A stretch of 64,000 nucleotides of DNA, taken from positions 1 to 64,000 of the forward strand of contig NZ_CALMPA010000046.1 of the NCBI RefSeq assembly GCF_937871615.1. The letters run 5' to 3'. Each line of letters opens with the position of its first letter. Position 1 is the first letter of the stretch. The stretch comes from an uncultured Sphingomonas sp. (GTDB lineage Bacteria; Pseudomonadota; Alphaproteobacteria; Sphingomonadales; Sphingomonadaceae). Positions 13,358 through 33,518 of the stretch are shown here, one piece after another. The translations under genes were made by a program, and so were the position numbers. The notes beneath the pieces were generated by a model. The model searched no databases and was not told the origin of the DNA. It was given only the letters and a program-made list of their open reading frames with translations.

Positions 13358-13383
13358 GGAGGGGAGGGGGAAGGGAATAGGGG
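13358..13383 (+). repeat. G-rich leader repeat, copy A
   Basis: GGAGGGGAGGGGGAAGGG followed by AATAGGGG, starting 88 bp before the DUF932 start codon. First of eight related G-tract motifs in 13.4-33.6 kb that precede start codons on the + strand. Confidence 0.7.
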
Positions 13384-13445
13384 CCGGGTGGCGCGGTGAG
13401 CATCGCGACCGGCGCACGTCAATCCACATTCTCGGAGACATTCCC

Positions 13446-14639
13446 ATGGCAAGCCTTGCCCTTTCCGCCGCGCGCCCGGCGCCCGGTACCTATCACGTCG
13501 ATCTCTCGCGCGGCTCATCCAATGACCGCGTCTCCTCCGAATGGTTCTCGCGACCCGACGACGAGCGCTTCCTGTCGCTCGGCGACCTTCATGCCAGCGT
13601 TCACGCCCGCGCGCAGCGCGCCCATACCCAGATCGTCGAAAGCCGGGAAATCCGTGTCGAGGCGCGCCGCGACGCCCCCGAACGGCTCGCGCTGCTCCTC
13701 CCGGAAAGCGACATGCCGATCGCACCTACCAACTGGTCGTTCGGCCAGATGTGCAGCATGGTCGGTGCGCCCGCCTCCTATCTGCGCGATCTTCCCGCCG
13801 CGCTCGCCGGGATCAACCTGCAGCACGGCCTGCTCAACCACCGCGCCGAGCACGTGAAGCTGCTCCAGACCGACAATGGCCGCACCGAGCTGCGTGCCGT
13901 CACCGGCCCCGATTATGGCCGGATCTGGGACCACCAGCTTGTCGAGGCGGTGATGCGATTCGCGGGCAACGGCACCGGCGACACGCGCTGGAAGGTCCCT
14001 GGCGTGCTCGATTGGCGGACGATGCAATATAACCCATATGTCGATGTCTCGAAGGAGACGACGACGCTCTACGCCTCGGATCGCGACATCTTCCTTTTCC
14101 TTGTCGACGACACCCATCCGATCGAGGCCGGGCGCCTGCCCAACGGCGATCCCGATCTCTTCTTCCGAGGCTTTTATTGCTGGAACAGCGAGGTCGGCGC
14201 GAAAACGCTCGGCATCGCGACCTTCTATCTGCGCGCGGTGTGCGCCAACCGCATTCTCTGGGGCGTCGAGAGTTTCGAGGAGATCAAGATCCGGCACAGC
14301 AAGTTTGCCGCCGGACGCTTCGCCCAGCAGGCCGAACCGGCGCTGGAACATTTCGCCGACGCCTCGCCCCGCAGCTTCGTGGACGGAATCCGCACCGCGC
14401 GCGAACGCATCGTCGCCCGCAAGGACCAGGATCGTGAGGATTTCCTGCGCAAGCGCGGCTTCTCCAAGTCCGAGACCACGAAAGTGATCGAGACGGTCCT
14501 GGCCGAGGAGGGGCGGCCGCCCGAGAGCGTGTTCGACTTCGTGAACGGCATCACCGCGCTCGCCCGCTCGAAGACCCAGCAGGACAGCCGGCTCGACCTC
14601 GAAGCCAAGGCGCGCGCCCTGCTCGAACGGATCAACTGA
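13446..14639 (+). CDS. DUF932 plasmid/phage-type protein
   Basis: 397 residues from an ATG preceded by GGAGA. DUF932 covers roughly residues 75-330 (PTNWSFGQMCSMVGAPASYL, RAVTGPDYGRIWDHQL, FRGFYCWNSEVGAKTLGIATFYLRAVCANRILWG split across it). The family is common on conjugative plasmids and in phages; its biochemical role is unknown. The upstream ATG at 13356 would translate the G-rich repeat and is rejected. It heads the + strand gene array. Confidence 0.85.
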   Translation: MASLALSAARPAPGTYHVDLSRGSSNDRVSSEWFSRPDDERFLSLGDLHASVHARAQRAHTQIVESREIRVEARRDAPERLALLLPESDMPIAPTNWSFGQMCSMVGAPASYLRDLPAALAGINLQHGLLNHRAEHVKLLQTDNGRTELRAVTGPDYGRIWDHQLVEAVMRFAGNGTGDTRWKVPGVLDWRTMQYNPYVDVSKETTTLYASDRDIFLFLVDDTHPIEAGRLPNGDPDLFFRGFYCWNSEVGAKTLGIATFYLRAVCANRILWGVESFEEIKIRHSKFAAGRFAQQAEPALEHFADASPRSFVDGIRTARERIVARKDQDREDFLRKRGFSKSETTKVIETVLAEEGRPPESVFDFVNGITALARSKTQQDSRLDLEAKARALLERIN

Positions 14640-14653
14640 CCTCGCGCCGGCCT

Positions 14654-14698
14654 CGCCCGCCCGAATTGCGCCCATATGCGTGATTGTTCGGGCGGGCG
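14654..14698 (+). promoter_or_regulatory. 12-bp perfect hairpin between the DUF932 and Mom-like genes
   Basis: CGCCCGCCCGAA (14654-14665) and TTCGGGCGGGCG (14687-14698) are exact reverse complements with a 21-base loop. There is no T-run, so it may be a mRNA structure in the Mom-like leader rather than a terminator. Confidence 0.5.
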
Positions 14699-14722
14699 CG
14701 ACGGTCATCAAGGACTATGACC

Positions 14723-15595
14723 ATGTTCACGTCCCGCACCCAGCGGTGGCGCGATCGGCGCTGCCGCTGGATTCCTCAGGCAACGGAGATCGACCCGAAG
14801 CGCCTTGCCGTCGACGTCATCAGCACGACCGAGCAGGCCGCGCCCTTCGTGCTCGCCCATCACTATAGCGGATCGATGCCGGTCGCCCGGCTTTCCATCG
14901 GTCTGTTCGCAAACGGACGCGGCCGCCGCTCCGAGCTGGTCGGCGTCTGCGTCTTCTCGCATCCCGTCAACGACGCCAGCGTCCCCAAGACGGCGGGCCT
15001 GTCCAATCCGCGGTCGGCTTGCGATCTCGGCCGGCTCGTGATCGATCAATCGCAGGGTGGCAATGCCGAAACCTTCCTGGTGTCACGCGCCTTCCGGCTG
15101 CTCAGGCGCGAGAAACCCGAAATCCTCTCGGTCATCTCCTACGCCGATCCGGTTTGTCGCGTCGATGCCCTCGGCAATGTCATCCTGCCCGGCCATGTCG
15201 GCGGGATCTATGCCGTGATGGCGGCCCGCTATACCGGGCGCTCCAGCCCGCGCACCGATCTCATCATGCCGGACGGCCGCCCGATTTCGTCACGCGCCAT
15301 ATCGAAGATCCGTAACGCCGAGTGCGGCCAGCGCTATGCGATGGAGACGCTGCTCCGGGCGGGGGCACGTCCGCCCGGCCCACGCGAATCCCGTGCCGGA
15401 TGGCTCGCGGACCTTGAGCGCGACGGCTTTCTGCGCCGCCAGCGCCATCCTGGCTGCCACGCCTATCTCTTCCCACTGACGAAGGCGGCCCGGCTCGCGG
15501 CGCGCAACGTTCCGAGCCTGCCCTATCCGGTGCTCAATCGAGGAACGACGTGCGGCGATGTCACGGCATTGCCACTGGTCGCTCTCGCCGCCTGA
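14723..15595 (+). CDS. Mom-like (GNAT-fold) DNA modification protein, putative
   Basis: 290 residues. The ATG at 14723 is chosen because AAGGA lies 8 bases upstream; ATG 14717 is too close to it. The core (about residues 28-190) has AHHYSGSMPVARLSIGLF, VGVCVFSHPVN, CDLGRLVID, AETFLVSRAFRLLR, SVISYADP, GHVGGIYAVM and a following LIMPDGR. This resembles the phage Mu Mom family of GNAT-like enzymes, which convert adenine to N6-carbamoylmethyladenine and block restriction. The C-terminal hundred residues look like a DNA-binding extension. The Mom assignment rests on motif order alone. Confidence 0.6.
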   Translation: MFTSRTQRWRDRRCRWIPQATEIDPKRLAVDVISTTEQAAPFVLAHHYSGSMPVARLSIGLFANGRGRRSELVGVCVFSHPVNDASVPKTAGLSNPRSACDLGRLVIDQSQGGNAETFLVSRAFRLLRREKPEILSVISYADPVCRVDALGNVILPGHVGGIYAVMAARYTGRSSPRTDLIMPDGRPISSRAISKIRNAECGQRYAMETLLRAGARPPGPRESRAGWLADLERDGFLRRQRHPGCHAYLFPLTKAARLAARNVPSLPYPVLNRGTTCGDVTALPLVALAA

Positions 15596-15606
15596 CGTTC
15601 AGGCTC

Positions 15607-15629
15607 GGAGGGAAGGGGGAAGGGGGTGG
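15607..15629 (+). repeat. G-rich leader repeat, copy B
   Basis: GGAGGGAAGGGGGAAGGGGG then TGG, beginning 12 bp after the Mom-like stop and 118 bp before the next start codon at 15725. Confidence 0.7.
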
Positions 15630-15724
15630 TGAGGATAGCCGACGGTCTGTCGGATCGTCGTCGCCTCGATTCAACCTCGCGACCGGCACGCCGCCGCGCC
15701 GCGCATTTCCGGAAGGCATCCAAA

Positions 15725-16192
15725 ATGCACACTGCCCAGAATATTTATGCGACCGCTCCCCTGGGAAGCCTCATTCGCTACGGCAACGGCCAACCCCGGC
15801 CGCCCGAACGTTTCAAGCGCAAGCTGCGCGCCTGGGAGAATGAGAACGGGACCGGCCGCCTGGTCGAGCGGCAGCCGGCCAAGGGCACGTCGCCCGCATA
15901 TTTCACGCTCCGCCTCGGGGATTTCGAGAGCGAGGGCGTCATCGTCATGGTGGTCCGGCGTCTCTTCAGCGCCGAAAGCCCCAATCCGTTCGACATCGTC
16001 GAGACGCCGAAGCCGGGGATGGTCCGCGTGCTCACCGGCCATGGGGCGCGGGAGCAACTGCGCTTCCTCGCCCGCGATATGGCACATGCTGAACGCTGGA
16101 TGGAGGACAACCATTATTCGGACATGCGCGCCGAGACCGTGCCCGATCCCGATCCGGTTCTCGGCCCGGATGCGCTGAAACAGGCCGCGTAA
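15725..16192 (+). CDS. Hypothetical plasmid protein
   Basis: 155 residues; ATG 15725 follows GGAAGG. The N-terminus is basic (RPPERFKRKLRAWE), the middle is a beta-rich region (AYFTLRLGDFESEGVIVMVV), then an amphipathic helix (EQLRFLARDMAHAERWMED). No signal peptide or membrane segment. I do not recognise the family. It has its own G-rich leader, suggesting a separate transcript start. Confidence 0.7.
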   Translation: MHTAQNIYATAPLGSLIRYGNGQPRPPERFKRKLRAWENENGTGRLVERQPAKGTSPAYFTLRLGDFESEGVIVMVVRRLFSAESPNPFDIVETPKPGMVRVLTGHGAREQLRFLARDMAHAERWMEDNHYSDMRAETVPDPDPVLGPDALKQAA

Positions 16193-16299
16193 TCCGAGAG
16201 TCCCGGCATCGGCGATTGCGCTCCGGTGTCGGGACACGGCGCTCCACGGCGCCCGGTCACGCCATGCGGCCGGGCTGCCCTCTATCCGAGGTGATCACC

Positions 16300-16893
16300 A
16301 TGTCCATCGATCCCATCTTCCACAAAATCCATGCCCTAGTTGTCCCACATGGCATCATGCTAGAACTGATGAACGAGGAGCCCGACGCGCCGCTGGGGGA
16401 GCGTATCTCCGGGCAGGCATGGGCAGGCCGCTGGTTCGAAATCACGCAGCAATCCTACAACGAGATGTTCGAGATGATGCCGCCGCGCCTCATGGCGCCG
16501 GACATGTTCGCCCTGTCCGAGTTGAAAGCCGGCGCGGTAGGTTCGGTCTTCTTCGAGATCGTCATCGCCGGCAAGAAGCGGTGGTTCCACGGCTTCTGTT
16601 GCCTTTCCGACCGAGACGCGCCCACCAAAATGCGGACGGCCATCATTCTCTGGGAGACGGGTGACGCGACCGGGCTCACCCGCGATCAGAAGCTCGATGC
16701 GATCTGGTCGTTCACGCACCGAGGCTTTCGCGGGCACCTTCGCAATGGCGACGGGGCTGCGAACGCGGGCGACCTGCGGGGGTCCCGGACGATCCTGATC
16801 TACGAACCGGGATTCGGGACCGTCCTGAAACGGCTCGCCGATCTGACCGACAACGAAATCGCCGCCGAACTCCCCCGGCATCGCGCGCGATAG
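16300..16893 (+). CDS. DUF1419 protein
   Basis: 197 residues from an ATG preceded by GAGGTGA. DUF1419 is recognisable at about 45-125: GRWFEITQQSYNEMFEMMPP, MFALSELKAGAVGSVFFE, RWFHGFCCLSDR and MRTAIILWE. The family is restricted to plasmids and elements of alphaproteobacteria and has no assigned function. The C-terminal 70 residues are extra compared with the core. It sits alone between 107-bp and 182-bp gaps without a G-rich leader. Confidence 0.75.
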   Translation: MSIDPIFHKIHALVVPHGIMLELMNEEPDAPLGERISGQAWAGRWFEITQQSYNEMFEMMPPRLMAPDMFALSELKAGAVGSVFFEIVIAGKKRWFHGFCCLSDRDAPTKMRTAIILWETGDATGLTRDQKLDAIWSFTHRGFRGHLRNGDGAANAGDLRGSRTILIYEPGFGTVLKRLADLTDNEIAAELPRHRAR

Positions 16894-17075
16894 GCGCCGG
16901 AGCAACCGCCGGTCCCAATAGCATCGGTCACCTGGCGGCCGGTGCTTGCGGGCCAATCGCGTTGCGCCCGCCCAAAGATGGCGCGGGAAGGGCGATCGTT
17001 CCTGTCCACCGCGCCGCCGCCTGTCCGGCGATCCATTTTTCGGTCCTCTCGTCATCACCCAGCGAGGAACATTCC

Positions 17076-17387
17076 ATGTCCAGCATTGCATCCATACCGC
17101 GCCTTGCGGTGCGGCAATTGACCCGTGACGAAGCGGTGCGCTTTGCGACCGACGAACGCTGGCGGGCGCTCTCGATCGAGGATCGCGGCCTCTTCCAGCT
17201 TCGCCAGGACTGCCTCTGCATGCCGTTCGGCCATTTCGTCGAGGGCATGAACGCGCTGCTCGGCCGCCCGGTCTTCACCCATGAGTTCGCGGACCCCGAC
17301 GCCTTGTGGGCTGAATATCAGGGTGCCGTTCCGTCACCGGCTATCGGCGCGGTCATCGAGAATCTCGAACGCCGCCTCGCCGGCTGA
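17076..17387 (+). CDS. Hypothetical protein
   Basis: 103 residues; ATG 17076 is preceded by GAGGA. Sequence is soluble and mostly helical (LTRDEAVRFATDERWRALS, LFQLRQDCLCMPFGHFVEGM). Family unknown to me. Upstream 16894-17075 shows no gene; downstream 17388-17518 carries no clear terminator. Confidence 0.65.
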   Translation: MSSIASIPRLAVRQLTRDEAVRFATDERWRALSIEDRGLFQLRQDCLCMPFGHFVEGMNALLGRPVFTHEFADPDALWAEYQGAVPSPAIGAVIENLERRLAG

Positions 17388-17518
17388 CCCATACCCGCGT
17401 CCGCCGATCCAGCCACCTCCACACGGAGCTGGTCTAGGTCGCCTGGCACGTTCCCGCCAAGTGGGGCCACGCAAACACTTGATTGCAAATCAGATCATCA
17501 GGCCAAGGAGGACATCCA

Positions 17519-17944
17519 ATGAGTTTCGACCCGGCCAAATATGCGCGTGCCATGGGTGTAGCGACGATACCAACATCGACGTTGATCACCTTGAGGGACA
17601 AGCTGACCGCCGTTGTGATTGAGCAAGCAAGAACACGAGCGGAGTTACTGGCAGCGAAAGGCGAGGAGTTCACCCGCGAGGAGTGGGACACTCACTTCGA
17701 GGAGAAAGATGACGCCGACGCCCAGATACTGGCGGAAATCAACTCGGAACTTGCGGCGAAGAATGTACAGGTAGTTGAATCGCATGATCTGCCGATGTTC
17801 GAGCAGGCCGATCGGTTCGTCGAATGGCTCTCTCCCACCATCGAGCAGATCGACGATTATTGCAGCGACCATGATGCGATCGACACCGATAACGGTGCGT
17901 TCGCGGTCGACGGCGAAAGCGTCGTGGAGGAGGCGGGACAATGA
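17519..17944 (+). CDS. Hypothetical acidic protein
   Basis: 141 residues; ATG 17519 has a strong AAGGAGG. The protein is acidic, with a helical middle (LITLRDKLTAVVIEQARTRA) and an Asp/Glu-rich C-terminus. No domain recognised. Its last four bases overlap the next start (ATGA at 17941), so the two products are made together. Confidence 0.65.
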   Translation: MSFDPAKYARAMGVATIPTSTLITLRDKLTAVVIEQARTRAELLAAKGEEFTREEWDTHFEEKDDADAQILAEINSELAAKNVQVVESHDLPMFEQADRFVEWLSPTIEQIDDYCSDHDAIDTDNGAFAVDGESVVEEAGQ

Positions 17945-18225
17945 ACGCCACCCACCATGTCCATATCTACACGGTCATCCGGGTGAAAGTCGCCGTGGAA
18001 GCTGGCGATCAGCACGACGCCCTGAAGAGAGCCGATCAGGTGTTCAGCGCGCAAGGCTTTCCCGTCCGCCTCGTTCCCGTCGGTGAGCATATCCTCGATG
18101 CCGAACCGGCTGACGAAGTGATCGGCTATCTGGTCGATGAGGTAGACGATCCCGAGTTCCTCCGTTCCACCGCTTATGATGTGGAATTTCAACCTTGCAT
18201 TCCCGGAAAGGCCGCCTCGCAATAG
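17941..18225 (+). CDS. Hypothetical small protein, coupled to upstream gene
   Basis: 94 residues starting inside the previous stop. The pattern VIRVKVAVEAGDQHDALKRA resembles the short beta-strand plus helix modules of plasmid-encoded proteins of unknown function. No signal peptide. Unnamed family. Confidence 0.65.
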   Translation: MNATHHVHIYTVIRVKVAVEAGDQHDALKRADQVFSAQGFPVRLVPVGEHILDAEPADEVIGYLVDEVDDPEFLRSTAYDVEFQPCIPGKAASQ

Positions 18226-18282
18226 GCTCCGGCGGCGCGGAACGCCCTGAGGCCACGGCCGCGATATGGAAGCTGTCAGCCC

Positions 18283-18305
18283 GGAGGGGAGGGAGTGGGG
18301 ATGGG
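18283..18305 (+). repeat. G-rich leader repeat, copy C
   Basis: GGAGGGGAGGGAGTGGGG then ATGGG, starting 66 bp before the start codon at 18349. Confidence 0.7.
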
Positions 18306-18348
18306 TGCGGAAGCGAACGGTTCGCTGCCCCGCGTGGAGATCCATCCC

Positions 18349-18879
18349 ATGGCCAACACATACCTGCAAACTGCGTTCGACATTCACATCACTCCCGATG
18401 AAGCCGCGCTTCTCGCGGAATGTTTCGAGGTCGCGGACGAGATCGATTGCGGCATCCCTGGCGAGGAGTTGGACGCGGCGAGAGCCTATTATGACGAACG
18501 AAGCGCGGCTTTTCGCGCGGCCTTCCCGATCCGCACCGACGAGAACGATCCTTTCGCCGCCTTCCTCGATCTTTGGGACGATCCCGAATTCCCCCAGTTC
18601 GACGCGGACCTGTCGATCCGGACTGCCGATGACGGTCCGGGCGCTGTCGCGTTGATCAGCGGCCACCAGGTCGACGTGCGCGCGGTAGCGAACCTGATCC
18701 AGAAGACTTGCCCATCGGCCCTGCCGTTCGGCTTCGAATGGGCGTGCTATTGCGACCGCCTGCGGCCCGGAGAGCATGGCGGTGGCTATTTCGTCGTCAC
18801 CGGCACCGACATCATCGGCGGTTCGACCGGCTGGCTGATGAGCGAGGCGTTGCAATCGCCGGACACGAGGCAGCCCTAA
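18349..18879 (+). CDS. Hypothetical protein
   Basis: 176 residues, ATG 18349 after GGAGATCC. Acidic and soluble; two halves: helical 10-75 (ITPDEAALLAECFEVADEID, ARAYYDERSAAFRAAF) and a C-terminal alpha/beta part with GFEWACYCDRL and GGGYFVVTG. The second half recalls small immunity-type or DUF5983-like folds but I cannot assign it. The PP-loop ATPase gene follows after 30 bp, so the two may be one transcript. Confidence 0.68.
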   Translation: MANTYLQTAFDIHITPDEAALLAECFEVADEIDCGIPGEELDAARAYYDERSAAFRAAFPIRTDENDPFAAFLDLWDDPEFPQFDADLSIRTADDGPGAVALISGHQVDVRAVANLIQKTCPSALPFGFEWACYCDRLRPGEHGGGYFVVTGTDIIGGSTGWLMSEALQSPDTRQP

Positions 18880-18909
18880 ACGCTTCTCGCCCCTGAACGG
18901 GAAATCATC

Positions 18910-20037: not shown

Positions 20038-20085
20038 CGGGCGCGAGCCCTCGCTTTCCTCCTCCAGCCGCGAAGGATCATCCCG

Positions 20086-20781: not shown

Positions 20782-20790
20782 TCGCTGCAG

Positions 20791-20819
20791 GGAGGGGAGG
20801 GAGTGGGGAGTGGGGCGGG
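20791..20819 (+). repeat. G-rich leader repeat, copy D
   Basis: GGAGGGGAGGGAGTGGGG followed by AGTGGGGCGGG, starting 9 bp after the DUF5983 stop and 64 bp before the next start codon. Copies C and D share the longest identical core. Confidence 0.75.
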
Positions 20820-20854
20820 CGTTGGATTGCGCCCAGATCTCAGGAGCATCGCCC

Positions 20855-21502
20855 ATGTCCTATGATGTCGTCTTCCGGTTCCAACAGGCGCTCGACCCGT
20901 CCGCGCTGACCACCCTTGCCAACTGCCTCCATGGCCTCACCACCGCCATCGAGGATTGCCGCAACGCCGGCAAACCCCATGACAGCGATCCCGCCGTGAT
21001 CCTGCTGGCGCGCCATCTCGGCGCCTTTGCCGCGACGATCGGCGGCCCGGACGTGTTGCTCCGTCGCCAGTGCATGGACGCCGTCGCCGATCTTCGCAGC
21101 AAGCCCGCGCTGATCCCGCTCGCGCACAAGGGCGTCGCTTATGATGCCCATGCCAAGAAGGTCTTCCTGAGCGAGGGCCGCAAGGCGCTGCGCCGTCTCG
21201 CCGACGCGCTCGGCCTGGCCGATGAGAGCTACGACATCCGCGTCAATCGCGGCGGCATCGCCGTCAGCGGCGAAATCACGCTGCACGGCGAGGACATCTA
21301 TGTCGAACTGAGCCTCGGCTGTTTCGGCCGGGGCCGCGAAGTTCTGTATCGCCGCGTGCAGGGACGCCGCGATTATTGCGGGGACCGCAATCACTTCACG
21401 GGGGTCGAGGACCTGCTGAAACCCGATCGGTTCGCCGCCCAGCTCCGTCGCGAACTTCATCTTCCCCAACCCGACACCGTGCCGGCCCGGCTGGTCGCCT
21501 GA
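20855..21502 (+). CDS. Hypothetical protein
   Basis: 215 residues; ATG 20855 after AGGAG. Helical N-terminal half (ALTTLANCLHGLTTAIEDC) and a beta-rich middle (YDIRVNRGGIAVSGEITLHG, YVELSLGCFGRGREVLYRRV). C-terminus is a helix (RFAAQLRRELHLP). No recognised domain, signal or membrane segment. It has its own G-rich leader. Confidence 0.68.
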   Translation: MSYDVVFRFQQALDPSALTTLANCLHGLTTAIEDCRNAGKPHDSDPAVILLARHLGAFAATIGGPDVLLRRQCMDAVADLRSKPALIPLAHKGVAYDAHAKKVFLSEGRKALRRLADALGLADESYDIRVNRGGIAVSGEITLHGEDIYVELSLGCFGRGREVLYRRVQGRRDYCGDRNHFTGVEDLLKPDRFAAQLRRELHLPQPDTVPARLVA

Positions 21503-21513
21503 GGAGAACCATC

Positions 21514-21975: not shown

Positions 21976-22007
21976 TCCCCGCACCGGATATCACGAAAGG
22001 ACATCCC

Positions 22008-22514
22008 ATGGATGACTCCACCCATAGCTTTGCGCTCGAGACCGCCGCCTGTCTCTGGGAAGTGGTTCTCGACCTTCGCGATCGCCCCGTAACCGATCCA
22101 GACGCTCTTGCGCTGGCGACGGCGATCGACGCCGCCTTCAAGGCCGTCGGGGCTGCGGAGATGCGGCTGACCGTCATCGGCTGGACCGGTGCGGTCGATG
22201 CCGCCTGGACGGCCGTTCGGGACAACTATGATCGATGCTTCGACTGGGACTTCGTACCCGAATGGATCGTCGCCAACATCGACTGGTCGGACCCCGGTCG
22301 ACCGACGATCAGGCCGCCGGATACCGGAGGGGAGGAAGGGGGAGATGGGGGCGGTGTTGAGACCGCGTCGTTTCCGGAGGATCCCATGAAATACCCTGCC
22401 ACTATCCAGACCAGTGTGGGTCAGTCGATCATCGGCAAGGTCGGCCGCCTGTTCAACGGCACCGCCACCGACGTGCTCAACTTATGTGGAATTACGAGTC
22501 ACGCGTTTTCTTGA
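22008..22514 (+). CDS. Hypothetical protein reading through into the GHKL gene start
   Basis: The ATG at 22008 opens an unrecognised acidic protein (LETAACLWEVVLDLRD, CFDWDFVPEWIVANIDW) whose natural end should lie near 22320. No stop is present: the frame runs through G-rich copy E (as GGEEGGDGGG) and continues in frame through the GHKL gene start at 22386 until a stop at 22512 inside the inserted element. The 168-residue product is thus a fusion of this gene, a translated leader, 32 GHKL residues and element sequence. A lost stop codon is the simplest reading. Confidence 0.55.
   Translation: MDDSTHSFALETAACLWEVVLDLRDRPVTDPDALALATAIDAAFKAVGAAEMRLTVIGWTGAVDAAWTAVRDNYDRCFDWDFVPEWIVANIDWSDPGRPTIRPPDTGGEEGGDGGGVETASFPEDPMKYPATIQTSVGQSIIGKVGRLFNGTATDVLNLCGITSHAFS
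22326..22353 (+). repeat. G-rich leader repeat, copy E
   Basis: GGAGGGGAGGAAGGGGGAG then ATGGGGGCGG, starting 60 bp before the GHKL start codon at 22386; also read as protein by the upstream open frame. Confidence 0.7.
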
Positions 22515-24743: not shown

Positions 24744-25804
24744 TGGTCGCGCTCCGGGCTGCTTTCGACCAACATGCGGGTTCGCCATGCGTGGATCTGC
24801 TCCATGGAGCCGGCCAGTTTTCTGGAGAGATCCCTGCCAGAGAGGTGGATATACTGCTGTGTGGATGCGAGGTTCCGGTGTCCGGCGAGCTGCGCGATCT
24901 CATGTATGTCCCAACCTGCGCGAGCCAGATCCGTCAGGCAAAGATGACGCAGTGTGTGGGTCGAAAACTTGTCGAGGTCGGCCGCGATCGCGATGCGCCT
25001 GATCACCTTTGACCAGGTCCACAGCGTGATGGGCTCTCCGTAATTTCGACGTGATTCAGAAAGGAAGAGCCTGCCGCGATCACGGGCCACCCGACGTCGA
25101 TGCTCAAGATAGGCGGCAAACAAAACACCGGCGGTCTCCGAGTAGGGAACGATACGGTCTCTGTTGCTCTTGCTGGTTTCGCCCCGGATCAGGATCAGAC
25201 GATGTGCCGGATCGATGTCGCGCGTCTCAATGGCGCAAAGTTCCTCGCGCCGCAGAGCGGCATCATATGCAATCGCCAGCATGCATCTATTACGGATGGG
25301 CTCATCCTTTGCGCACAGGAGAAACCGATGCCATTCTTCATCCGAAGGAATCCAGGGCAAGCTCTTATGCCGGCGGATCAGACCGCGGTCCCGCTTCGGA
25401 CTAAAGGGCCTGTTTGGGACAAACCGACCACGTCCCACGGGATTATTGGTTCGAACCCCTTCTTCAACCAGGTAATCGAAGAATAGCCGAATGGCCGTAA
25501 GCCGCTGATGCAACGTGGCGCTGGAAAGGCCGGATGTAGATTGCGCTGCGTCCCGTACTGACTTCCTGGCGCCTGGAAGCGTCCGCAGGTGAGCTACATA
25601 ACTGGCAATGTTGGGCCGGGTTGCAGCGCTTGCTGCGACATCGTTCGCCTCGCACCATCGTAGAAACTGCTCGAGGCCGCGACCGTAGGCCTCCACGGTA
25701 TTGGAGGCCAAACCAAGCATGTGCTGAATATCGAGCCACTCTTTCCCATTCACGTGGCGAGAGGTGAGGGGGAAAAGTTGCCATCGGATATTCACGGCAG
25801 TCAT
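24740..25804 (-). CDS. Tyrosine recombinase/integrase, TnpA-like
   Basis: 354 residues. N-terminal SAM-like DNA-binding domain (about 20-125, NTVEAYGRGLEQFLRWCE), catalytic domain with R185 (ALRREEL), HTLRH (283-287), H309 (AGHRNLASTQQYIH) and nucleophile Y318; all catalytic residues are present. The ATG at 25804 is taken because the longer frame would start by TTG inside the right inverted repeat. First gene of the two-gene operon; its promoter must lie in or beside that repeat. Confidence 0.85.
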   Translation of the reverse strand: MTAVNIRWQLFPLTSRHVNGKEWLDIQHMLGLASNTVEAYGRGLEQFLRWCEANDVAASAATRPNIASYVAHLRTLPGARKSVRDAAQSTSGLSSATLHQRLTAIRLFFDYLVEEGVRTNNPVGRGRFVPNRPFSPKRDRGLIRRHKSLPWIPSDEEWHRFLLCAKDEPIRNRCMLAIAYDAALRREELCAIETRDIDPAHRLILIRGETSKSNRDRIVPYSETAGVLFAAYLEHRRRVARDRGRLFLSESRRNYGEPITLWTWSKVIRRIAIAADLDKFSTHTLRHLCLTDLARAGWDIHEIAQLAGHRNLASTQQYIHLSGRDLSRKLAGSMEQIHAWRTRMLVESSPERDQ

Positions 25805-25810
25805 GTGAGC

Positions 25811-25883: not shown

Positions 25884-27543
25884 GGTCTTAGCTTCTCACG
25901 CCCAGCCACGAATTCCAAATAACATAGCGAATTGCTCCAGAACGCTCGACGTGCCGGAGCATCCCGGATCGAGATTGAGAAACTCGCCACCGAACGCGGG
26001 CCAATCCTCACGGTGCGCGATGATGGGCGCGGCATCGCCGATCCGGCGAAGTTCCTGACGTTGGGCGATTCCGGCTGGGACGCTTCCATCGCCAGGTCCG
26101 AAGATCCGGCTGGGATGGGGGTGTTCAGCCTCGCTGGTCGCCATGTCACGGTGCGATCCCGCCCGGTCGACAGCACCGAGGGCTGGCAGGTGACAATCCC
26201 TCCCGAAGCCTGGGAGAGCAGCCTGCCGCTCGATGTTGTCCCCGCTGAGATCGTGCAGGGCACCGAAATCGATATCGATCTTCCCGATGGCTGGGTTCCG
26301 CACCTGGACAGCGCGGTGAAATCCGCCGCGACCTATTTCCCGCTTCCTGTAGTCTTCGACGGGGTAATGCAGGCCCGATCCGACTTCCTTCAGGGTGCTG
26401 AGCGTGTCGAAGACTGGGGCGGGTGCCGCATCGGTGTGTTCAAGAATGCGATCCGTGGCGACAGGGTCCGCATGAACTTTCACGGGCTGACCGTGCCGTG
26501 CAAACTGCCATACGCGCATGATGCTGAAGGCGGTGATGGCTGGGACGTCCGCGTGGAGATCGTGGATGCGCCGGATCTCCAACTCGTGTTGCCTGCTCGC
26601 AAAGAGATGGTCGAAGGCGCGGCTCTCGATGCGCTGCGCGTAGCCTGCGAGGCGGCAATCTACCGGACTATTGCTCGCAAGGGCCATCACCGCCTGCCAT
26701 TTAAGAGCTGGCAGCGTGCTCGTGATCTCGGCATTCTTCTTCCCGAGGCTTCCCCCTGGCTCGACGAATGGTGCCCCCGCGCCGCAGATGACGACGCCGT
26801 CATGCGAGGCGACCGGATCGCTGGCGAGCCGATGATCATTCTGCCCTATGAAGATGCCCATATCGAGCAATGTATGGGCCGGGCGATCGGGACCGGAGGC
26901 TTGTGCGGGGCAAAGCCCGTCCGACCGGTCGACGCCTTCAAGGGCTATGCCTGGTATGATGCCCTCCCACGTGTCTTTGCCCCCAACTTCCGGATCGCGC
27001 GCGGCGAGGAGCGGATCGATTACGATGGGAAGCGGGAACGCCCTCACGAATTGGAGTCCGGACACGTCGACGGGCTGACTCTTGAACTGGCCGTGCAAGA
27101 TTCCGGCGATCCGCTGGCCACCATCGAGGTGATCGAACTGCCCGTCGATGTGGTTATTGCGCCCGGTGACATCTGGGCCGGTCTGGGCGAGACGTCGATC
27201 TTGCTCGGCCCCGACTGCGCGATCGCTCCCGCCGATCTCGCCTGGCTCATCGAAGCGGCGTGTTTCTGTCCCGGCGACGACAGCAATGACGACAGCTACG
27301 AGACCCAGCAGTGCAGATTCGAGATCGAGGCGCGCTTCATCGCGAACAATCTCCTGCTCGGCGAGGATGCCGCGTTGCTTGCCCGCGTGCGCGACGCGAT
27401 GATCGAACATGTGACCTGGCTGGTGCCGACGGGGCGTTCGGTCAGCGTGGCCGCAAACGACTGGACCGTCGAGGTGGCCTTCGCCGACAACGATCCGGGG
27501 CCGCTTCCCGCCGCCGCCTGACCTCCTTCCCACCGATGCGATC

Positions 27544-27571
27544 AACCGGGCGGTCTCAGGATCGCCCGGTT
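27544..27571 (+). terminator. Terminator-like hairpin after the ATPase gene
   Basis: AACCGGGCG (27544-27552) pairs with CGCCCGGTT (27563-27571) around a 10-base loop, 22 bp after the GHKL stop. No T-run follows beyond GCTT, so termination is plausible but unproven. Confidence 0.4.
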
Positions 27572-27600
27572 GCTTCGCGTGCCGACAAGGAACCGCCGCC

Positions 27601-28038: not shown

Positions 28039-28355
28039 TGGCGATCCCCGAGCATTTCCGCACCAATTTCCAAACGCTGCTGCGAGCCGCTGCAGACAAA
28101 GCGCTCGCGCTCATGGAATGCAACGACGCAGCCACCGGCGAGCCGCGCTACGTCCTCTGCGCGGTCGGACGCGACCAGGGCAACTACGTCGTGACGCCCT
28201 TCGGCCATCTCGCTGACGGCAATCCCTATGAGCACTATCTGCCGCCCGATGTGCCCGGTGGTTCCCAAGGCCGCGCCAATCCCGTCAGCGGAAGCCCCGC
28301 TGCGCTATCCCCATCACCCGGAACGCGCCGAAAAGGCGGCAGGAGATCGCCATGA
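28038..28355 (+). CDS. DUF6117 protein
   Basis: 105 residues. IPEHFRTNFQTLLRAAADKA, LMECNDAATGEPRYVLCAVG and TPFGHLADGNPYEHYLPP are the hallmark of DUF6117, a small family on alphaproteobacterial plasmids with no known function. The C-terminal 30 residues are low-complexity and lie beyond the domain. Coupled at both ends (TGATG upstream, ATGA downstream). Confidence 0.75.
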   Translation: MAIPEHFRTNFQTLLRAAADKALALMECNDAATGEPRYVLCAVGRDQGNYVVTPFGHLADGNPYEHYLPPDVPGGSQGRANPVSGSPAALSPSPGTRRKGGRRSP

Positions 28356-28540
28356 ACGGTCTATCCACGGCCCGCGCCACGCTGGCCACGTTCGGAAACG
28401 CCTATAGCGTCGCGGTCCGGTTGCGCGAGACGACCGGACGGAACCAGTACGTCGTGCGGACCGGCAATGCGTTCCAGCCGTTCCGCGTCACGACCGCGCT
28501 GCCGGCGAACGACGAAGATGTGCTTGTCCAGGTCGCTTGA
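28352..28540 (+). CDS. Hypothetical 62-residue protein
   Basis: Starts in the DUF6117 stop (ATGA). Short basic beta-rich sequence (YSVAVRLRETTGRNQYVVRT, FQPFRVTTALP) that looks like a single small domain. No function can be given. Confidence 0.6.
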   Translation: MNGLSTARATLATFGNAYSVAVRLRETTGRNQYVVRTGNAFQPFRVTTALPANDEDVLVQVA

Positions 28541-28578
28541 CCGGACGCCTCATTCCCTCACCTGACCGGAGAACCGAC

Positions 28579-29385
28579 ATGCCCATCAGCAATATGGCTG
28601 CGCTCGCCGACATCGTGCTCGGCGACGCAGAAGCCCTCGCGCGCGCCTACCATGAGATTACGGTCCAGCGCCTTGGCGACTTCGAAAGCGAAGACGCGCG
28701 CCGCCGCTGCGCCATTGCCGTCCGGGCGGTCGGCATGGCCGCCGATCCTGACGCTTATAGCACGGCCTATGCCCGAATCGCGGGCCGTCCGACCGCGCCA
28801 TCGAAGCCGCCTGTCACGCTGGTGTGCAACCGCTGTGGGAGCGCCGACGTGGTGCGCGATGCCTGCGCCCAATGGGATGAGGCAACGCAGCAATGGGAGC
28901 TCGCCGGGGTGTATGATTCCACGACCTGCCAGACCTGCTCGGCCGAGAGTGACGACCTTTGCGCCTGGGTCGCATGCGTGCCTACCCCGCCATCGCCCAT
29001 TCCCGTTTGCCGCCGTTGCGGAAGCGATCGGATCGTGCGCGACGCCGGTGTGCGCTGGGACGCGCGATCAGGGCAATGGGTGTTGGTCGACCTTGATGAC
29101 TGCGCGTTCTGCGAGGCGTGCGAAGAGGAGGGCGATTTGCTGGTCCGCTGGTCGTCGACCGATGCGCCGGAATCGGCCACATCCCTTGAGGATGAGCCCG
29201 ACACCGACGCCGATCACGTCATCGCGCTCTTCAAGGCGCTCTGCGCGCTCGAGGCCGAGGTGCAACGGGTCAGGGAGCGGCTTCCCGAAGTCGACACCGT
29301 GATCAATCGCGGACTTGTAGAGGCAGCGCAGCAGACGGTTGAGGCGTACTTCCAACGCCTCTCCGCCCGGCTCGGAGACGGATGA
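28579..29385 (+). CDS. Double zinc-ribbon protein
   Basis: 268 residues; ATG 28579 has GGAGA upstream and is preferred to 28537. Two homologous ribbon units: CNRCGSADVVRDACAQWD...CQTC (Cys 83, 86, 117, 120) and CRRCGSDRIVRDAGVRWD...CEAC (Cys 144, 147, 178, 181). Each can bind one zinc, suggesting nucleic-acid or protein contact. A coiled-coil-like C-terminus (ALEAEVQRVRERL) follows an acidic linker. The internal duplication is clear by eye; the family has no name I know. Coupled to the next gene. Confidence 0.7.
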   Translation: MPISNMAALADIVLGDAEALARAYHEITVQRLGDFESEDARRRCAIAVRAVGMAADPDAYSTAYARIAGRPTAPSKPPVTLVCNRCGSADVVRDACAQWDEATQQWELAGVYDSTTCQTCSAESDDLCAWVACVPTPPSPIPVCRRCGSDRIVRDAGVRWDARSGQWVLVDLDDCAFCEACEEEGDLLVRWSSTDAPESATSLEDEPDTDADHVIALFKALCALEAEVQRVRERLPEVDTVINRGLVEAAQQTVEAYFQRLSARLGDG

Positions 29386-29765
29386 TGGCCCATCTCAGCA
29401 AGCAGAGGCGTTTGCGGGACACCGGACCCCGGACCGTTGCGACCAGATCGGACGAGGCGGCTTGCCCGTCACCGCCCGCCCGGCGGCCATCACCCCAGGT
29501 GGACTTGCGCTGGCGAGACGAGAATTACGGTTCAGTCTATGCGGTCGCCGCGTTTCGGAACTACGCCGATACCAGCGACTGGAGCGAACGGACGTTCCAG
29601 CGCTTCCGGGGCTGTCTCAGGCGCGCCGGCTTTGAAATCCACCACGGGCGCGCCGCCTATATCGCCACGAAAGGCGATGGCCCGAGCCGGAAGCGCGCGC
29701 TCTGCGACGAACTCGCCGCCGCCGGGTTCGACATCGCTCACGGTGACGTCCGGGGCGTGACATGA
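29382..29765 (+). CDS. Hypothetical protein
   Basis: 127 residues starting in the previous stop and ending in the next start (ATGA both sides). Basic, with a C-terminal winged-helix-like stretch (WSERTFQRFRGCLRRAGFEI, SRKRALCDELAAAGFDI). Possibly nucleic-acid binding; not assigned. Confidence 0.62.
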   Translation: MMAHLSKQRRLRDTGPRTVATRSDEAACPSPPARRPSPQVDLRWRDENYGSVYAVAAFRNYADTSDWSERTFQRFRGCLRRAGFEIHHGRAAYIATKGDGPSRKRALCDELAAAGFDIAHGDVRGVT

Positions 29766-30793
29766 TGGCCGCCCGCCCGTCTATCGCATTCCAGTGCCTG
29801 CGATTGCTGCGGGGGCGCTTGCTGGCTGTCTGTTTCGGCGCTGGCGTGGATTCCACCGCGATGCTGGTGGCGCTCCGTCTCGCGGGCATCCGTCCGCACG
29901 TCATCACCTTCGCCGATGTCGGCGAGGGCGAGAAACCGGAGACCATGGTTCATCTCGATCGGATGAACGCCGTCCTGATCTCCTGGGGCTGGCCGCAGAT
30001 CTCGACCTGCCGGAAGATTCCGCTCGCTTCGACCGGCTATGACAGCCTCTACGGCAATTGCCTCGCCAACGAGACGCTGCCGTCGCTGGCGTTCGGGATG
30101 AAAAGCTGTTCCCGTAAATGGAAACAGATTCCGCAGGACCAATTCATCAAGGGCGCACGGTCCGGTCCGAATGCCGCGCGGCCTCATCCGGTCTGGGTCG
30201 AGGCGCAGCGGACCGGTCAGCGCATTCTCAAACTGATCGGCTATGATTGCGGGCGCGCGGACCTGCGCCGATCGCGCAACCTGGCCATGGCCGATGCCGA
30301 TTTCGACTATGCCTATCCGCTCCAGATGCTCGGCTGGAGGCGCGAGGACTGCATCGAGATCATCACGGACGTGCTCGGCGCCGATTATGTGCCGATCAAA
30401 TCGGCCTGCTTTTTCTGTCCCGCTTCCAAGATCTGGGAACTGTTCTGGCTAGCGGCACACCATCCCGATCTGCTCGATCGTGCGCTTCTGCTCGAACGCA
30501 ATGCCCTGACCGGCCGCCATAGCCGGTTCGACGAGGTCGAGTTCGGGGCGACCTGGGAAGAAATGGTCGGCAATGCCGATCGCTTTCCGAGCACGAGCAC
30601 CACCGTCGGCCTCGGACGCAGTTTCGCCTGGAACCAATGGGCACGGGTCAACGATGTCGTCGACGAAAGCTATCGCGTTCGGCGCGACGCGGCGGATCGC
30701 GCCCGTTTCGAGATTCGGGCCGCCGAATTGCGGACCGCAGGCAACGCCGATGACCGGCGGTTTCCGGTTCGCCCTTGGTCGCTCGCGGCGTGA
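29762..30793 (+). CDS. Second PP-loop ATPase, PAPS-reductase-like
   Basis: 343 residues. The PP-loop is CFGAGVDST (24-32), a variant of SGGxDS, in the context of AVCFGAGVDSTAMLVALRLA. Cysteines at CRKIP, CSRKWK and a C-terminal CFFCPASK resemble metal- or sulfur-handling positions. It is only distantly related to the PP-loop protein at 18910, so the element carries two separate enzymes of this class. Substrate unknown; adenylation chemistry is inferred from the fold. Last gene of the coupled 27601-30793 run. Confidence 0.75.
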   Translation: MMAARPSIAFQCLRLLRGRLLAVCFGAGVDSTAMLVALRLAGIRPHVITFADVGEGEKPETMVHLDRMNAVLISWGWPQISTCRKIPLASTGYDSLYGNCLANETLPSLAFGMKSCSRKWKQIPQDQFIKGARSGPNAARPHPVWVEAQRTGQRILKLIGYDCGRADLRRSRNLAMADADFDYAYPLQMLGWRREDCIEIITDVLGADYVPIKSACFFCPASKIWELFWLAAHHPDLLDRALLLERNALTGRHSRFDEVEFGATWEEMVGNADRFPSTSTTVGLGRSFAWNQWARVNDVVDESYRVRRDAADRARFEIRAAELRTAGNADDRRFPVRPWSLAA

Positions 30794-30898
30794 CGGCTCC
30801 CACTTCCTTTCCACTGCCGATGTTCCGGCGCCGGTCGCCCGTTCTGACGGTCGGCTGCATCCGCGCGCGGGAACGCCGGCTCCAGCGAGGACAATGCC

Positions 30899-31549
30899 AT
30901 GCCAGACGTCATGGAAGTCACCGTTTTCAGGTTCGAGGAGCTCCCGGAGAGGGCCAAGGAGACCGCCCGCCAATGGTATCGGGAATCGTGCCTCGACTAT
31001 GACTGGCATGACGACACGTTCGAGGATTTCGCACGAATCTGCGAGATTCTTGGCGTCTCGCTCAAGACCACGCCCGTTCGACTCTATGGCGGCGGCACGC
31101 GCGATAAGCCCAGAATCTACTTCTCCGGATTCTCTTCGCAAGGTGACGGTGCCTGTTTCGAGGCAAGATACCGATATGCGCGCGGTGCACATCGCGAAAT
31201 CCGGGCGTATGCGCCGCAGGACGAGGAACTGCATCGCATCGCGGATGCCTTCCGCGATGTCCAGCGCCGGAGTTTCTATCAACTTACGGCCGACGCGACG
31301 CACCAGGGTCGGTATTATCACGAATATTCCATGTCGGTCGCTGTCGAGCGAGGGGATACGCATTACGGTGACGCCAGCGAACACGCCGAAAACGCGATAG
31401 CCGAGATTCTGCGGGACCTCGCGCGCTGGCTCTATCGAGCACTCGAAAAAGAATATGACTATCTGACGTCCGACCCGGTGGTCGACGAAGCGATCGCTGC
31501 CAACGGCTTCCGGTTTACCGAAGCTGGCGGCCGTTTGGCGAAGCTGTAG
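30899..31549 (+). CDS. Conserved plasmid protein of unknown function
   Basis: 216 residues. Core motifs FEELPERAKETARQWYRES, RIYFSGFSSQGDGACFEARY, EIRAYAPQDEELHRIADAF and YYHEYSMSVAVER define a family seen on many proteobacterial plasmids and prophages and sometimes labelled antitoxin of a stability system, without evidence I know. No toxin neighbour is present. Two gaps, 105 bp before and 179 bp after, show no further gene. Confidence 0.68.
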   Translation: MPDVMEVTVFRFEELPERAKETARQWYRESCLDYDWHDDTFEDFARICEILGVSLKTTPVRLYGGGTRDKPRIYFSGFSSQGDGACFEARYRYARGAHREIRAYAPQDEELHRIADAFRDVQRRSFYQLTADATHQGRYYHEYSMSVAVERGDTHYGDASEHAENAIAEILRDLARWLYRALEKEYDYLTSDPVVDEAIAANGFRFTEAGGRLAKL

Positions 31550-31728
31550 ATGCATATGTCCCATATCGCATCGTGCAAGCGCGCCACGCTCGCCAACCCG
31601 ATCCCCCAAAGACCCCCCTTCGAGGATTCCGCCCGGACGGAAGCGCGGACGCTCGAAAACGAAACCCGCTGCCTGGCATGACGAACTCTGCAGCCTGGCG
31701 TCTGACCCATTGCTGAAAGGAATGCGAG

Positions 31729-32028
31729 ATGGACGCGCACCCTTGCCTCGGACTCGTGATGAACGTGCCCGAATTCTTCGCCGACCCGGCGTTCCGGCGC
31801 TGGCTCCAAAACGACAATCCCAAGTTCACCCGGTGTCGCGATGGAGCGATCGACGAATGGCCGGACGTGGTCGTGCTGGTCGACCCGAGCCTGACTGGCG
31901 AGGGTAGCGACTCCGATATGCCGAAGGCGTTCTGGACCCGGATCGTCGACGCCTGCCAGGAGCATCTCGGCATCGGGACTGATCAGTGGACGCACTATAT
32001 GGTCCGGCTGACGAATCTCGGCGATTGA
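31729..32028 (+). CDS. Hypothetical protein
   Basis: 99 residues; ATG 31729 follows AAGGA. Soluble, tryptophan-containing sequence (FFADPAFRRWLQNDNPKFTR, WPDVVVLVDPSLTGEGSD). No known domain. Followed after 40 bp by G-rich copy F. Confidence 0.62.
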   Translation: MDAHPCLGLVMNVPEFFADPAFRRWLQNDNPKFTRCRDGAIDEWPDVVVLVDPSLTGEGSDSDMPKAFWTRIVDACQEHLGIGTDQWTHYMVRLTNLGD

Positions 32029-32067
32029 TAGCGGTCTGCGGCTCCGCGATTCCTGACCCCGCTTGCA

Positions 32068-32093
32068 GGAGGGGAGGGGGAGGCGAGCGGGGG
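32068..32093 (+). repeat. G-rich leader repeat, copy F
   Basis: GGAGGGGAGGGGGAGGCG then AGCGGGGG, starting 51 bp before the start codon at 32119. Confidence 0.7.
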
Positions 32094-32118
32094 ATAATTC
32101 CGTCCGTGGGGATTCAAT

Positions 32119-32634
32119 ATGCACACCGCCCAACTTGCGCAGCCCGATAACCCTCCACTTTCGGTCTTCATTTCGGGGTCGATCTCCATCAGGCAGCCGC
32201 TTTCCACGCTGGTCATGGATCGCCTCGCCGGGATCGTCGAGCGCTCCATGCCCATCCTGATCGGCGACGCCCCAGGGGTCGATGCTGCCGTTCAGTCTTA
32301 TCTCGCCCGGCAGCGCTATAACCACGTCACGATCTTCTGCGGCGGTGGACTGCCCCGGCACAATATCGGTGGATGGCCGGTCCGTACGGTCCGCGCCGAT
32401 GCTCCGGCCAGGACGCGCGCGTGGCATATGGCGAAGGACCGCGAAATGGCCCGCCTCGCTGATACCGGATTCGTGATCTGGGACGGATCGAGCCGCGGCA
32501 GCTTCGCCAATATCGAGCGACTCTGTCGGCGCGGATGCTATGTCCTCATCTACCTCGACCGGGAACAACGCTTCGTCTCGCTCGAATGCGATGCTGTACG
32601 GGAGGTGTTCCTTGCATCGCATCGGCCGGGCTGA
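32119..32634 (+). CDS. SLOG-like nucleotide-binding protein
   Basis: 171 residues with a Rossmann-like layout: FISGSISI (strand and loop), PILIGDAPGVDAAVQSYL (phosphate-binding-like), VTIFCGGGLPRHN, MAKDREMARLADTGFVIWDG and SRGSFANIERL. This is the order seen in DprA/LOG-like SLOG proteins, several of which sense or make nucleotide derivatives in conflict systems. No effector gene is fused or adjacent. A DUF2493 relative of this fold lies at 36061. Confidence 0.6.
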   Translation: MHTAQLAQPDNPPLSVFISGSISIRQPLSTLVMDRLAGIVERSMPILIGDAPGVDAAVQSYLARQRYNHVTIFCGGGLPRHNIGGWPVRTVRADAPARTRAWHMAKDREMARLADTGFVIWDGSSRGSFANIERLCRRGCYVLIYLDREQRFVSLECDAVREVFLASHRPG

Positions 32635-32775
32635 TCAGGATGCGCGGGTGGCCGTATGTCCGGGTGACCTGATGTGCCGCGCGCACGCTGAACTCATTCC
32701 GATGAACTGCTTTCCGTTCACGCGGATAGCGAGCGGGACGTTTGGCGCAGGGCCTGACGATCTGCACGTCGGCGC

Positions 32776-32797
32776 GGAGGGGAGGGGGATTGGGGCG
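32776..32797 (+). repeat. G-rich leader repeat, copy G
   Basis: GGAGGGGAGGGGGATTGGGG then CGG, starting 79 bp before the start codon at 32855. Confidence 0.7.
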
Positions 32798-32854
32798 GAT
32801 GGGATGCAATACGCGGGTAGTTTGGCCGGCGGGTGCGTCCGATCCTTTCCAAGC

Positions 32855-33445
32855 ATGGAGGCTCCCGTGGTTCACGTCGCTCCCCCTATCTCGAATATCC
32901 ATCATTGCTTCGGCGTCATTCTTCACCATCGCGCAGAGTGGTGGTTCGTCGAATTTCCTGGTTACGATCTGACCCCGATCCGCGTGCTCCCGCTCACCGG
33001 CGGGATCTCCGACGCGTTGCGAGACTCCCTGCGTCGGCGGAGAGCGGATCCGGCGCTCGGTAATGAAATCGCGACCGTCTATCCTGGTTACGAATGTTGG
33101 TGCGGCGATTTCTCGCTGGTCCGGTCTGCAGTCGACCCAGAACGCTTCGACATAGCCGCGCATCCGTGGGGCGCCGACGCGGGGGAACTCGATGCGCGGC
33201 TTGCCCGGACGATGGTGGAATCGACACTGTTCCCGATACCCGCCGGCTTCATCTCGGTGTTCGGGATGCTGCCGAACGAGAACGTTCCCGTGCTGGCGAT
33301 CCGGGCGAGCAGCTACCTATGCGCGACCTTCGAACTCATCACCGCGCGCTATATGCCGAGCTATCGGCCGCGCTCGCCATGGCGGGATATTTCGAACGAC
33401 GCGGTGAGCGAGAGCGGGTGCGAAATTCTCGGCTGGACCCCGTGA
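32855..33445 (+). CDS. Hypothetical protein
   Basis: 196 residues from ATG 32855, chosen because all other G-rich leaders stand outside the coding region; the ribosome site is weak. Beta-rich sequence (HCFGVILHHRAEWWFVEFPG) with hydrophobic patches (FISVFGMLPNENVPVLAIRA) but no clear membrane helix. Unassigned. Confidence 0.6.
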   Translation: MEAPVVHVAPPISNIHHCFGVILHHRAEWWFVEFPGYDLTPIRVLPLTGGISDALRDSLRRRRADPALGNEIATVYPGYECWCGDFSLVRSAVDPERFDIAAHPWGADAGELDARLARTMVESTLFPIPAGFISVFGMLPNENVPVLAIRASSYLCATFELITARYMPSYRPRSPWRDISNDAVSESGCEILGWTP

Positions 33446-33491
33446 CTGACTGGATCAGGCCCACCCGTTCCTAGCGCTGCCTTCTCTTGTT

Positions 33492-33518
33492 GGAGGGAAG
33501 GGGGCGGCGGGGAGGTGG
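33492..33518 (+). repeat. G-rich leader repeat, copy H
   Basis: GGAGGGAAGGGGGCGGCGGG then GAGGTGG, starting 120 bp before the start codon at 33612. Copies B and H share the GGAGGGAAGGGGG variant. Confidence 0.7.

Follow-up and report, generated by a model that had tools for sequence, protein, structure and literature searches.

Why would one conjugative element place the same G-rich motif ahead of eight of its genes? The question is raised by a 64-kb stretch, hereafter called the window, at the start of contig C46 (397 kb) in the 4.0-Mb genome of an uncultured Sphingomonas sp. It carries part of a MOBF/F-type conjugative element, and eight copies of GGAGGGRAGGG, each ahead of a rightward gene, occupy 13.4-33.5 kb to the left of the relaxase gene. 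We consider it fairly probable that these motifs form the 5' portions of structured leaders that act in cis to set the translation of conjugative-element genes. Judging from sequence comparison, the leaders most likely control translation initiation of establishment genes in cis.

The placement of the eight motifs is not chance. With at most one mismatch allowed, the seed matches the window ten times, always on the + strand, against a dinucleotide-shuffle mean of 3.27, and 0 of 100 shuffles reach ten. Seven exact copies start at 13358, 15607, 18283, 20791, 32068, 32776 and 33492, and a single-mismatch copy at 22326, in agreement with the eight-member, one-stranded family described by the first-pass annotation; the two further one-mismatch matches, at 63184 and 63948, lie within or beside - strand genes and are not leaders. 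In order along the window, the motifs start 88, 118, 66, 64, 60, 51, 91 and 120 bases ahead of their start codons, and each leader has a Shine-Dalgarno (SD)-like site apart from the G-tract, which bears out the earlier description of a leader position with separate ribosome sites. The eight were placed by hand; with automatic gene calls over 13-34.2 kb, the strict upstream range picks out 4 genes of 23. The whole genome holds 13 exact seed matches, 7 of them within these 20 kb, and a tighter pattern run on the same genome gave a single, uninformative match. A composition score calculated in a window of 22 nucleotides (nt) revealed nine tracts on the + strand and none on the - strand at 13.0-34.2 kb (the eight leaders plus one at 25756), two and none in the remainder of the window, and five in 340 kb of the same genome sampled as 17 control stretches. 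Together with a tract before 7 of 272 host genes, these densities sustain the claim that the motif is denser here than in the host genome. Two more control-drawn stretches hold five (L124) and seven tracts (L127, G000:C38:120001-140000), the latter being another element, whose seven tracts share a strand and include one that precedes a gene identified by eye as Mom-like.

Is this upstream position kept among relatives? In 40 fetched regions, 39 around DUF932-like homologues plus contig C6, two leader classes precede the DUF932 gene. Class A, the G-rich tract, stands before DUF932 in the window and in all nine class A relative regions (L069-L077, three of them near-identical), class B occupies L078-L106, and L107 has neither class by the automatic test. 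G-tracts also precede homologues of the cut gene at 22386 in L071-L074 and L077. Protein searches covered about 397 genomes of the family, the best 30 loci of each search being examined. They detected the 215-amino-acid (aa) gene of the window in 37 genomes, and a ParB-like gene, whose query (C6, L108:14215) is itself one of the further leader genes of this genome, in 119. Among these best 30 loci, the tract precedes 26 of the 28 readable ParB-like members (non-redundant 21/23; L207, with its N-terminus missing, and L210, with no start found, were left out) and 27 of 30 members of the 215-aa family (non-redundant 21/24), the host-gene rate given above serving as the comparison. These counts leave out 14 and 1 loci, respectively, that had been picked by the tract pattern itself, and the tractless L244-L246 stay in the 27 of 30, being out of the tract, mismatch, CCC, folding and swap tests. 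The upstream position that the first-pass annotation had expected relatives to share is thus kept for the ParB-like, 215-aa and DUF932 genes and at 22386; it failed at 18349 and is clear in one of two homologues at 33612. Eight class A relative stretches (143.5 kb; L074 left out as a near-copy of L073, the near-copy L072 retained) hold 22 tracts against 2 on the opposite strand, and 30 other DUF932 stretches (29 class B, and L107; 569 kb) hold 1 and 3 per strand.

A strict pattern of tract, gap, SD and ATG, run as one exact scan of 84,980 species, matched 61 stretches, 35 from sphingomonads (one by isolate name only) and 26 from others; the 35 are not independent, several being near-identical or from one species. 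An open reading frame (ORF) of at least 104 aa follows all 35 sphingomonad stretches, and one of at least 100 aa follows 5 of the 26 others. The pattern also matched one viral contig, where a 30-aa ORF follows.

What lies between the tract and the SD? In class A, this stretch is occupied by a hairpin, the sequence of which varies from gene to gene and drifts among orthologues yet pairs, as in GGGCG/CGCCC, GGGCG/CGTCC and GAGCG/CGCTC before the 215-aa gene. Near-identical leaders were removed before the stem, mismatch, G-run, folding and tract-spacer swap tests, and leaders without a tract were excluded by definition from the tract, stem and folding tests. Left out of A1 were L205 and 13 more distant ParB-like leaders, out of A2 L233 and L244-L250, and out of A3 L101. 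Compared with letter shuffles, Watson-Crick stems reach p<=0.05 in 20 of 81 non-redundant tract-bearing leaders (about 4 expected) and p<=0.2 in 38 (about 16 expected).

Which strand folds was read from the imperfections of these stems, which were found without crediting G-U, the inner mismatches then being counted. In 74 leaders there are 17 G-T and 1 A-C (shuffled G-T share 0.52; p=1.7e-4), leader 22326 being one base too long in these mismatch counts as well as in the CCC and G-run counts, and in the larger set of 81 leaders there are 18 and 2. G-T pairs function in coding-strand RNA, and on the complement the same positions read A-C. The excess of G-T over A-C therefore argues that the complement is not the strand under selection, and the coding strand, presumably as transcribed RNA, is the one that folds. 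The complement would be the transferred strand if the origin of transfer (oriT) lies to the right.

How might such a leader act on its start codon? CCC occurs in the last five bases before ATG in 32 of 74 leaders, compared with 27 of 184 tractless genes from the same regions (p=2.5e-6). A folding prediction on 71 leaders and 169 controls gave an SD-window pairing of 0.38 in leaders versus 0.59 in controls, and a spacer pairing of 0.68 versus 0.44, 0.56 of the leader value being with the tract. With the tract swapped for control DNA, the predicted SD pairing rises to 0.56 and the SD is closed again. Moreover, a tract and a spacer from the same leader pair better than swapped combinations, an equally good fit arising in 69 of 5000 permutations (p about 0.014).

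The likeliest mechanism, as far as folding models predict, is a clamp. A class A leader runs from a purine/G-rich tract of about 24 nt through a hairpin of gene-specific sequence to the SD and the start codon. The tract would pair with the pyrimidine-rich spacer that separates SD and AUG; this pairing would close a helix that encloses the hairpin and shows the SD in a loop, so that opening or stabilisation of the clamp would set the translation initiation rate of the leader-bearing genes jointly.

The class B leaders before DUF932 consist of AGAG..AGAG followed by a stem, TGACGGG/CCCGTC, and the second DUF932 copy of the source genome (C25, L102) carries one. A model of this class (R1), built from 21 sequences and run over 56 loci, gave 95 matches, 86 of them distinct with the building sequences included, in which 98.6% of cells are paired. 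Among the 86, 14 of 18 pairs have changes on both sides, a level reached by 0 of 500 shuffles, in an alignment fitted to the model and thus tilted in its favour; shifting the pairing partner abolishes the signal. Compensatory base changes are strong in class B and weaker in class A. The first two SD bases are 0.98 paired in the class B stem (84 sequences), and because the stem takes in these two G, a masked SD is predicted. With its purine motif followed by such a stem, class B would do the same job as class A from a masked SD.

Class B occurs in 20 of 289 alphaproteobacterial genomes, the source genome included (17/223 genera), and in three of six annotated plasmid regions, those of Agrobacterium, Gemmobacter and Sphingopyxis, with none in L251, L255 and L256. 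Of these last, L251 comes from pBSY17_1 of Sphingobium sp. RAC03 and L256 from pHR1a of Novosphingobium resinovorum. Inspection of 31 matches from the class-wide search revealed a start codon at most 5 nt from the model end in 30, the remaining one running off its locus; of those 30 starts, two open short ORFs (29 and 75 aa) and several are cut by the locus end. A blastp search with the downstream genes returned five DUF932 and nine ParB-like family members, so both classes head the same two gene families; eight other class B genes begin with what we take, by eye, to be ArdC-like sequence. In the ParB leader of A. pusense, a stem of class B (52.4 bits) stands behind the class A-like tract GAGGAGGGAAGTGGG, a composite that hints at kinship of the two classes. 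In L255 (S. meliloti pSymA), the gene at 5391, which is annotated as an antirestriction protein, is preceded, as seen by eye, by a long tract of purines and a hairpin whose loop reads GGAGAGAGG, and R1 has no match there at E 1.

Several results weigh against translational leaders of this kind. Before DUF932, the seed is found within one mismatch in just 5 of the 9 class A relative regions. At 18349, three near-identical homologues (35%) lack the tract; at 33612, it is clear in L069 (score 10), L076 having a one-mismatch seed (score 0); and for 15725, 32119 and 32867 the fetched regions contain no homologue with which to compare their leaders (15607, 32068 and 32776). Folding is better than in shuffles for just two of the eight leaders in the window (z -3.12 and -3.50); the scores of the remaining six range from -0.69 to 0.20. 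RNAalifold on MAFFT alignments of class A was weak, giving 10 pairs, 2 with two-sided change, for the ParB-like leaders and 5 pairs, 2 with two-sided change, for the 215-aa leaders, because stem lengths differ and the alignment misplaces the arms; the per-leader stem tests took its place.

The clamp faces further difficulties. No CCC is present in the spacer of 42 of 74 leaders, and once the tract part is removed, SD pairing is equal, 0.58 in leaders and 0.58 in controls. The tract-spacer specificity is modest, with p of 0.04, 0.12, 0.14 and 0.22 within families, and a control segment at -24..-15 gave 402/5000 in the swap test. To a large degree, the clamp is a consequence of composition. In addition, R1, run over the loci given, matched no class A leader strongly, and the two classes predict opposite default states of the SD. 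As for the bare 11-mer, it is common (present in 85 of 100 relatives) and, over this genome and 60 of the genus, rarer than its letter-reversed control (301 versus 446); it was rejected as evidence because that control is more frequent. The signal resides in the motif's placement and context. An origin by chance or base composition, which such frequencies would favour, is hardly credible in view of the strand, the position, the conservation before orthologues and the covariation of class B, which heads the same gene families.

Could the tract serve another purpose than that of one arm of a clamp? It may be a single-stranded docking site for a shared trans factor, either an RNA-binding protein of the element or a small C-rich RNA such as the CCUCCUCCC type, with the hairpin merely positioning it by the SD; we regard this as a reasonable possibility, though we lean away from it. 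The tract letters are conserved while the hairpin letters vary, and class B likewise keeps an unpaired purine motif ahead of its stem. That several genes of one element share one tract also points to a common factor. Against this, no candidate factor was found, and C-rich partners, counted as opposite-strand tracts, are nearly absent from the class A stretches (2 in 143.5 kb, host small RNAs lying outside that search). Alternatively, the tract could be an SD-like docking or standby site that raises the concentration of 30S nearby, the hairpin separating it from the true SD. The enrichment of GGAG in tracts (150 versus 124.5 in shuffles, z 3.1) agrees with this unlikely option, which leaves the pyrimidine spacer and the rarity of the tract before host genes unexplained.

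The first-pass annotation had suggested G-quadruplexes in the mRNA, i-motifs in the complementary transferred strand, or promoters used during entry, none of which fared well. Four of the eight leaders in the window fit a canonical quadruplex, taken as four runs of G3 or more with loops of 1-7; of 83 tracts, 23 (27 with flanks) contain four G3 runs, and runs of at least three G exceed shuffles (239 versus 207, z 4.6). However, four-run tracts are at shuffle level (19.3, standard deviation 3.2; with flanks 25.2, standard deviation 3.4, tract-shuffled), and the longest G runs are shorter than in shuffles (z -6.4). On these counts and the asymmetry of stem mismatches, the canonical quadruplex and the i-motif were rejected as a general feature, and either structure is very unlikely to explain the family. 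Promoters, or Frpo-like single-stranded-DNA promoters, used in the recipient seem scarcely more probable. All leaders point toward the TrwB and TrwC genes, as expected of leading-region genes if oriT is there. By contrast, a scan of 13.2-33.19 kb (33492 lying outside) for the duplex sigma-70 consensus found two sigma-70-like sites versus 3.6 in shuffles, neither at a leader; as the scan knows the sigma-70 consensus only, promoter use is disfavoured rather than excluded. The G-T/A-C asymmetry also favours the coding strand, and for five of the eight tracts in the window, the called stop codon of the preceding gene lies 9-57 bases ahead of the tract start.

A different use of the hairpin was considered as well. 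In L108 and ParB-like orthologues, the reading frame of the preceding gene can extend across the G-tract to a TGA stop within the hairpin loop (CTGATGG; by eye), so that its termination would be coupled to the start of the ParB-like gene. It was rejected as a common mechanism because it is absent from the 215-aa set, having been seen by eye, uncounted, in part of the ParB-like set.

Do the leaders belong to a known family? Rfam 15 (4227 models) gave no match at the gathering threshold in the window and L251-L256, and at a relaxed threshold nothing at the leaders in the window (12.9-35.5 kb), L102, L084, L087, L127, L254, L255 and L108; a known Rfam family for class A or B was rejected within these loci. 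A literature search at the level of listings and the starts of abstracts, with subscription journals mostly outside, found no description of such leaders. Since neither an Rfam match nor a published description was found, we rate the leaders as new within a known kind, that of structured leaders. Among known kinds, the closest is that of candidate structured leaders in the vicinity of DNA-handling genes, radC and STAXI being examples.

RadC RNAs head DNA-handling genes. The radC motif (RF01754), like our leaders, is a candidate cis-regulatory structured RNA of Proteobacteria, according to the part of its description available (PMC2864571). RF01754 has no match in the window's genome, where the search was blind, 14 control genomes likewise giving none, and it is also unmatched in the Rfam searches of the window and relative loci covered. 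As described in the available part of the same source, STAXI (RF01728) lies near single-strand-binding, topoisomerase, antirestriction and integrase genes, and its authors likewise weighed RNA against single-stranded DNA (PMC2864571). The leaders thus resemble STAXI in such gene neighbours and in the RNA-or-DNA question, whereas STAXI consists of repeated pseudoknots in Enterobacteriales, and that part of its description mentions no G-tract. The Frpo/ssi elements, which act as single-stranded promoters in leading regions and are DNA hairpins carrying -35/-10 elements, explain the early expression of establishment and anti-defence plasmid genes, and among the 300 most prevalent leading-region families the anti-defence genes lie exclusively on the transferred strand, as stated in the accessible part of the report (PMC11541004). 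They too act ahead of establishment and anti-defence genes but, as described there, are DNA hairpins acting in transcription, whereas here the coding strand appears to fold, ahead of the SD. In general, RNA regulators can mask or unmask the SD. Class B resembles them in that its stem is predicted to change SD accessibility, and differs in that one layout is common to several genes of an element.

Tentatively, and with rather more doubt than conviction, classes A and B might be two versions of one element-wide riboregulatory system in alphaproteobacterial conjugative elements. Such a system would jointly control the translation of establishment genes (DUF932, ParB-like, ArdC-like, Mom-like and others), for example through a burst in the new host and a subsequent shut-off by a common element-encoded RNA-binding factor reading the purine tract. 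If so, leader RNAs common to several establishment and anti-defence genes would add a translational layer to promoter-level control. The class B model R1 and the class A tract plus hairpin may offer a sequence handle for establishment genes in alphaproteobacterial elements.

In the window, all eight class A leaders lie on the + strand. The leader of the DUF932-like gene (13446..14639, +; named from plasmid annotations, with no Pfam match at 0.001) spans 13358..13445 and consists of G-tract, hairpin, SD GGAG and the ATG at 13446. It is followed by the leaders at 15607..15724, before a 155-aa ORF at 15725 (minimum free energy z-score 0.20); at 18283..18348, before ATG 18349, with a predicted tract-spacer helix and the SD in an internal loop; and at 20791..20854, before the 215-aa gene (20855-21502), which is itself included in the 27 of 30 members above. 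The leader at 22326..22385 precedes ATG 22386 of the cut gene (z-score -3.12), and those at 32068..32118, 32776..32866 and 33492..33611 precede the ORF at 32119 (-0.58), GTG 32867 (-3.50) and ATG 33612 (-0.69; homologues in L069 and L076), respectively. In the predicted minimum-energy folds of 13358, 18283, 20791, 22326 and 32776, as we read them, the tract pairs with bases immediately upstream of the start codon and the SD is looped, an arrangement not formed in those of 15607, 32068 and 33492. At about 22.48-25.9 kb, an insertion splits the gene at 22386 into an N-terminal part and a remainder at 25932-27521; a 561-aa homologue without the insertion is present in L073.

The genes for a TrwB-like coupling protein and a TrwC-type (MOBF) relaxase were identified by Pfam at 38257..43328 on the + strand, and the leaders therefore sit within a conjugative element; TraG-, TraH- and TraC-like proteins are encoded on its - strand (Pfam). 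Plasmid DNA resembling the window comes from sphingomonads and other Alphaproteobacteria. The genes between the leaders include a Mom-like DNA-modification gene, a PAPS-reductase-like gene and genes of DUF1419, DUF5983 and DUF7736 proteins. Genes of this type are found in leading regions, and the orientation of the leaders fits a leading region, provided that oriT lies near 35-38 kb, an assumed position; use at establishment is presumed. The source genome has further elements or element parts, with class A leaders on C6 (L108) and C38 (L127) and class B on C25 (L102).

Three nested inverted repeats (35016-35268), with arms of 38, 27 and 31 nt that are 82, 100 and 97% complementary, separate the genes that bear leaders from those of the coupling protein and the relaxase. 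These repeats are a candidate oriT, single-strand origin or Frpo-like promoter; sub-threshold Rfam microRNA matches in this segment look like hairpin artefacts. The segment 35488-35979 encodes a DUF736 protein with the C-terminus DEEVPF after a Gly-rich stretch, a tail that may resemble that of single-strand-binding proteins. DUF736-type genes in L073 and L077 are preceded by purine-tract leaders.

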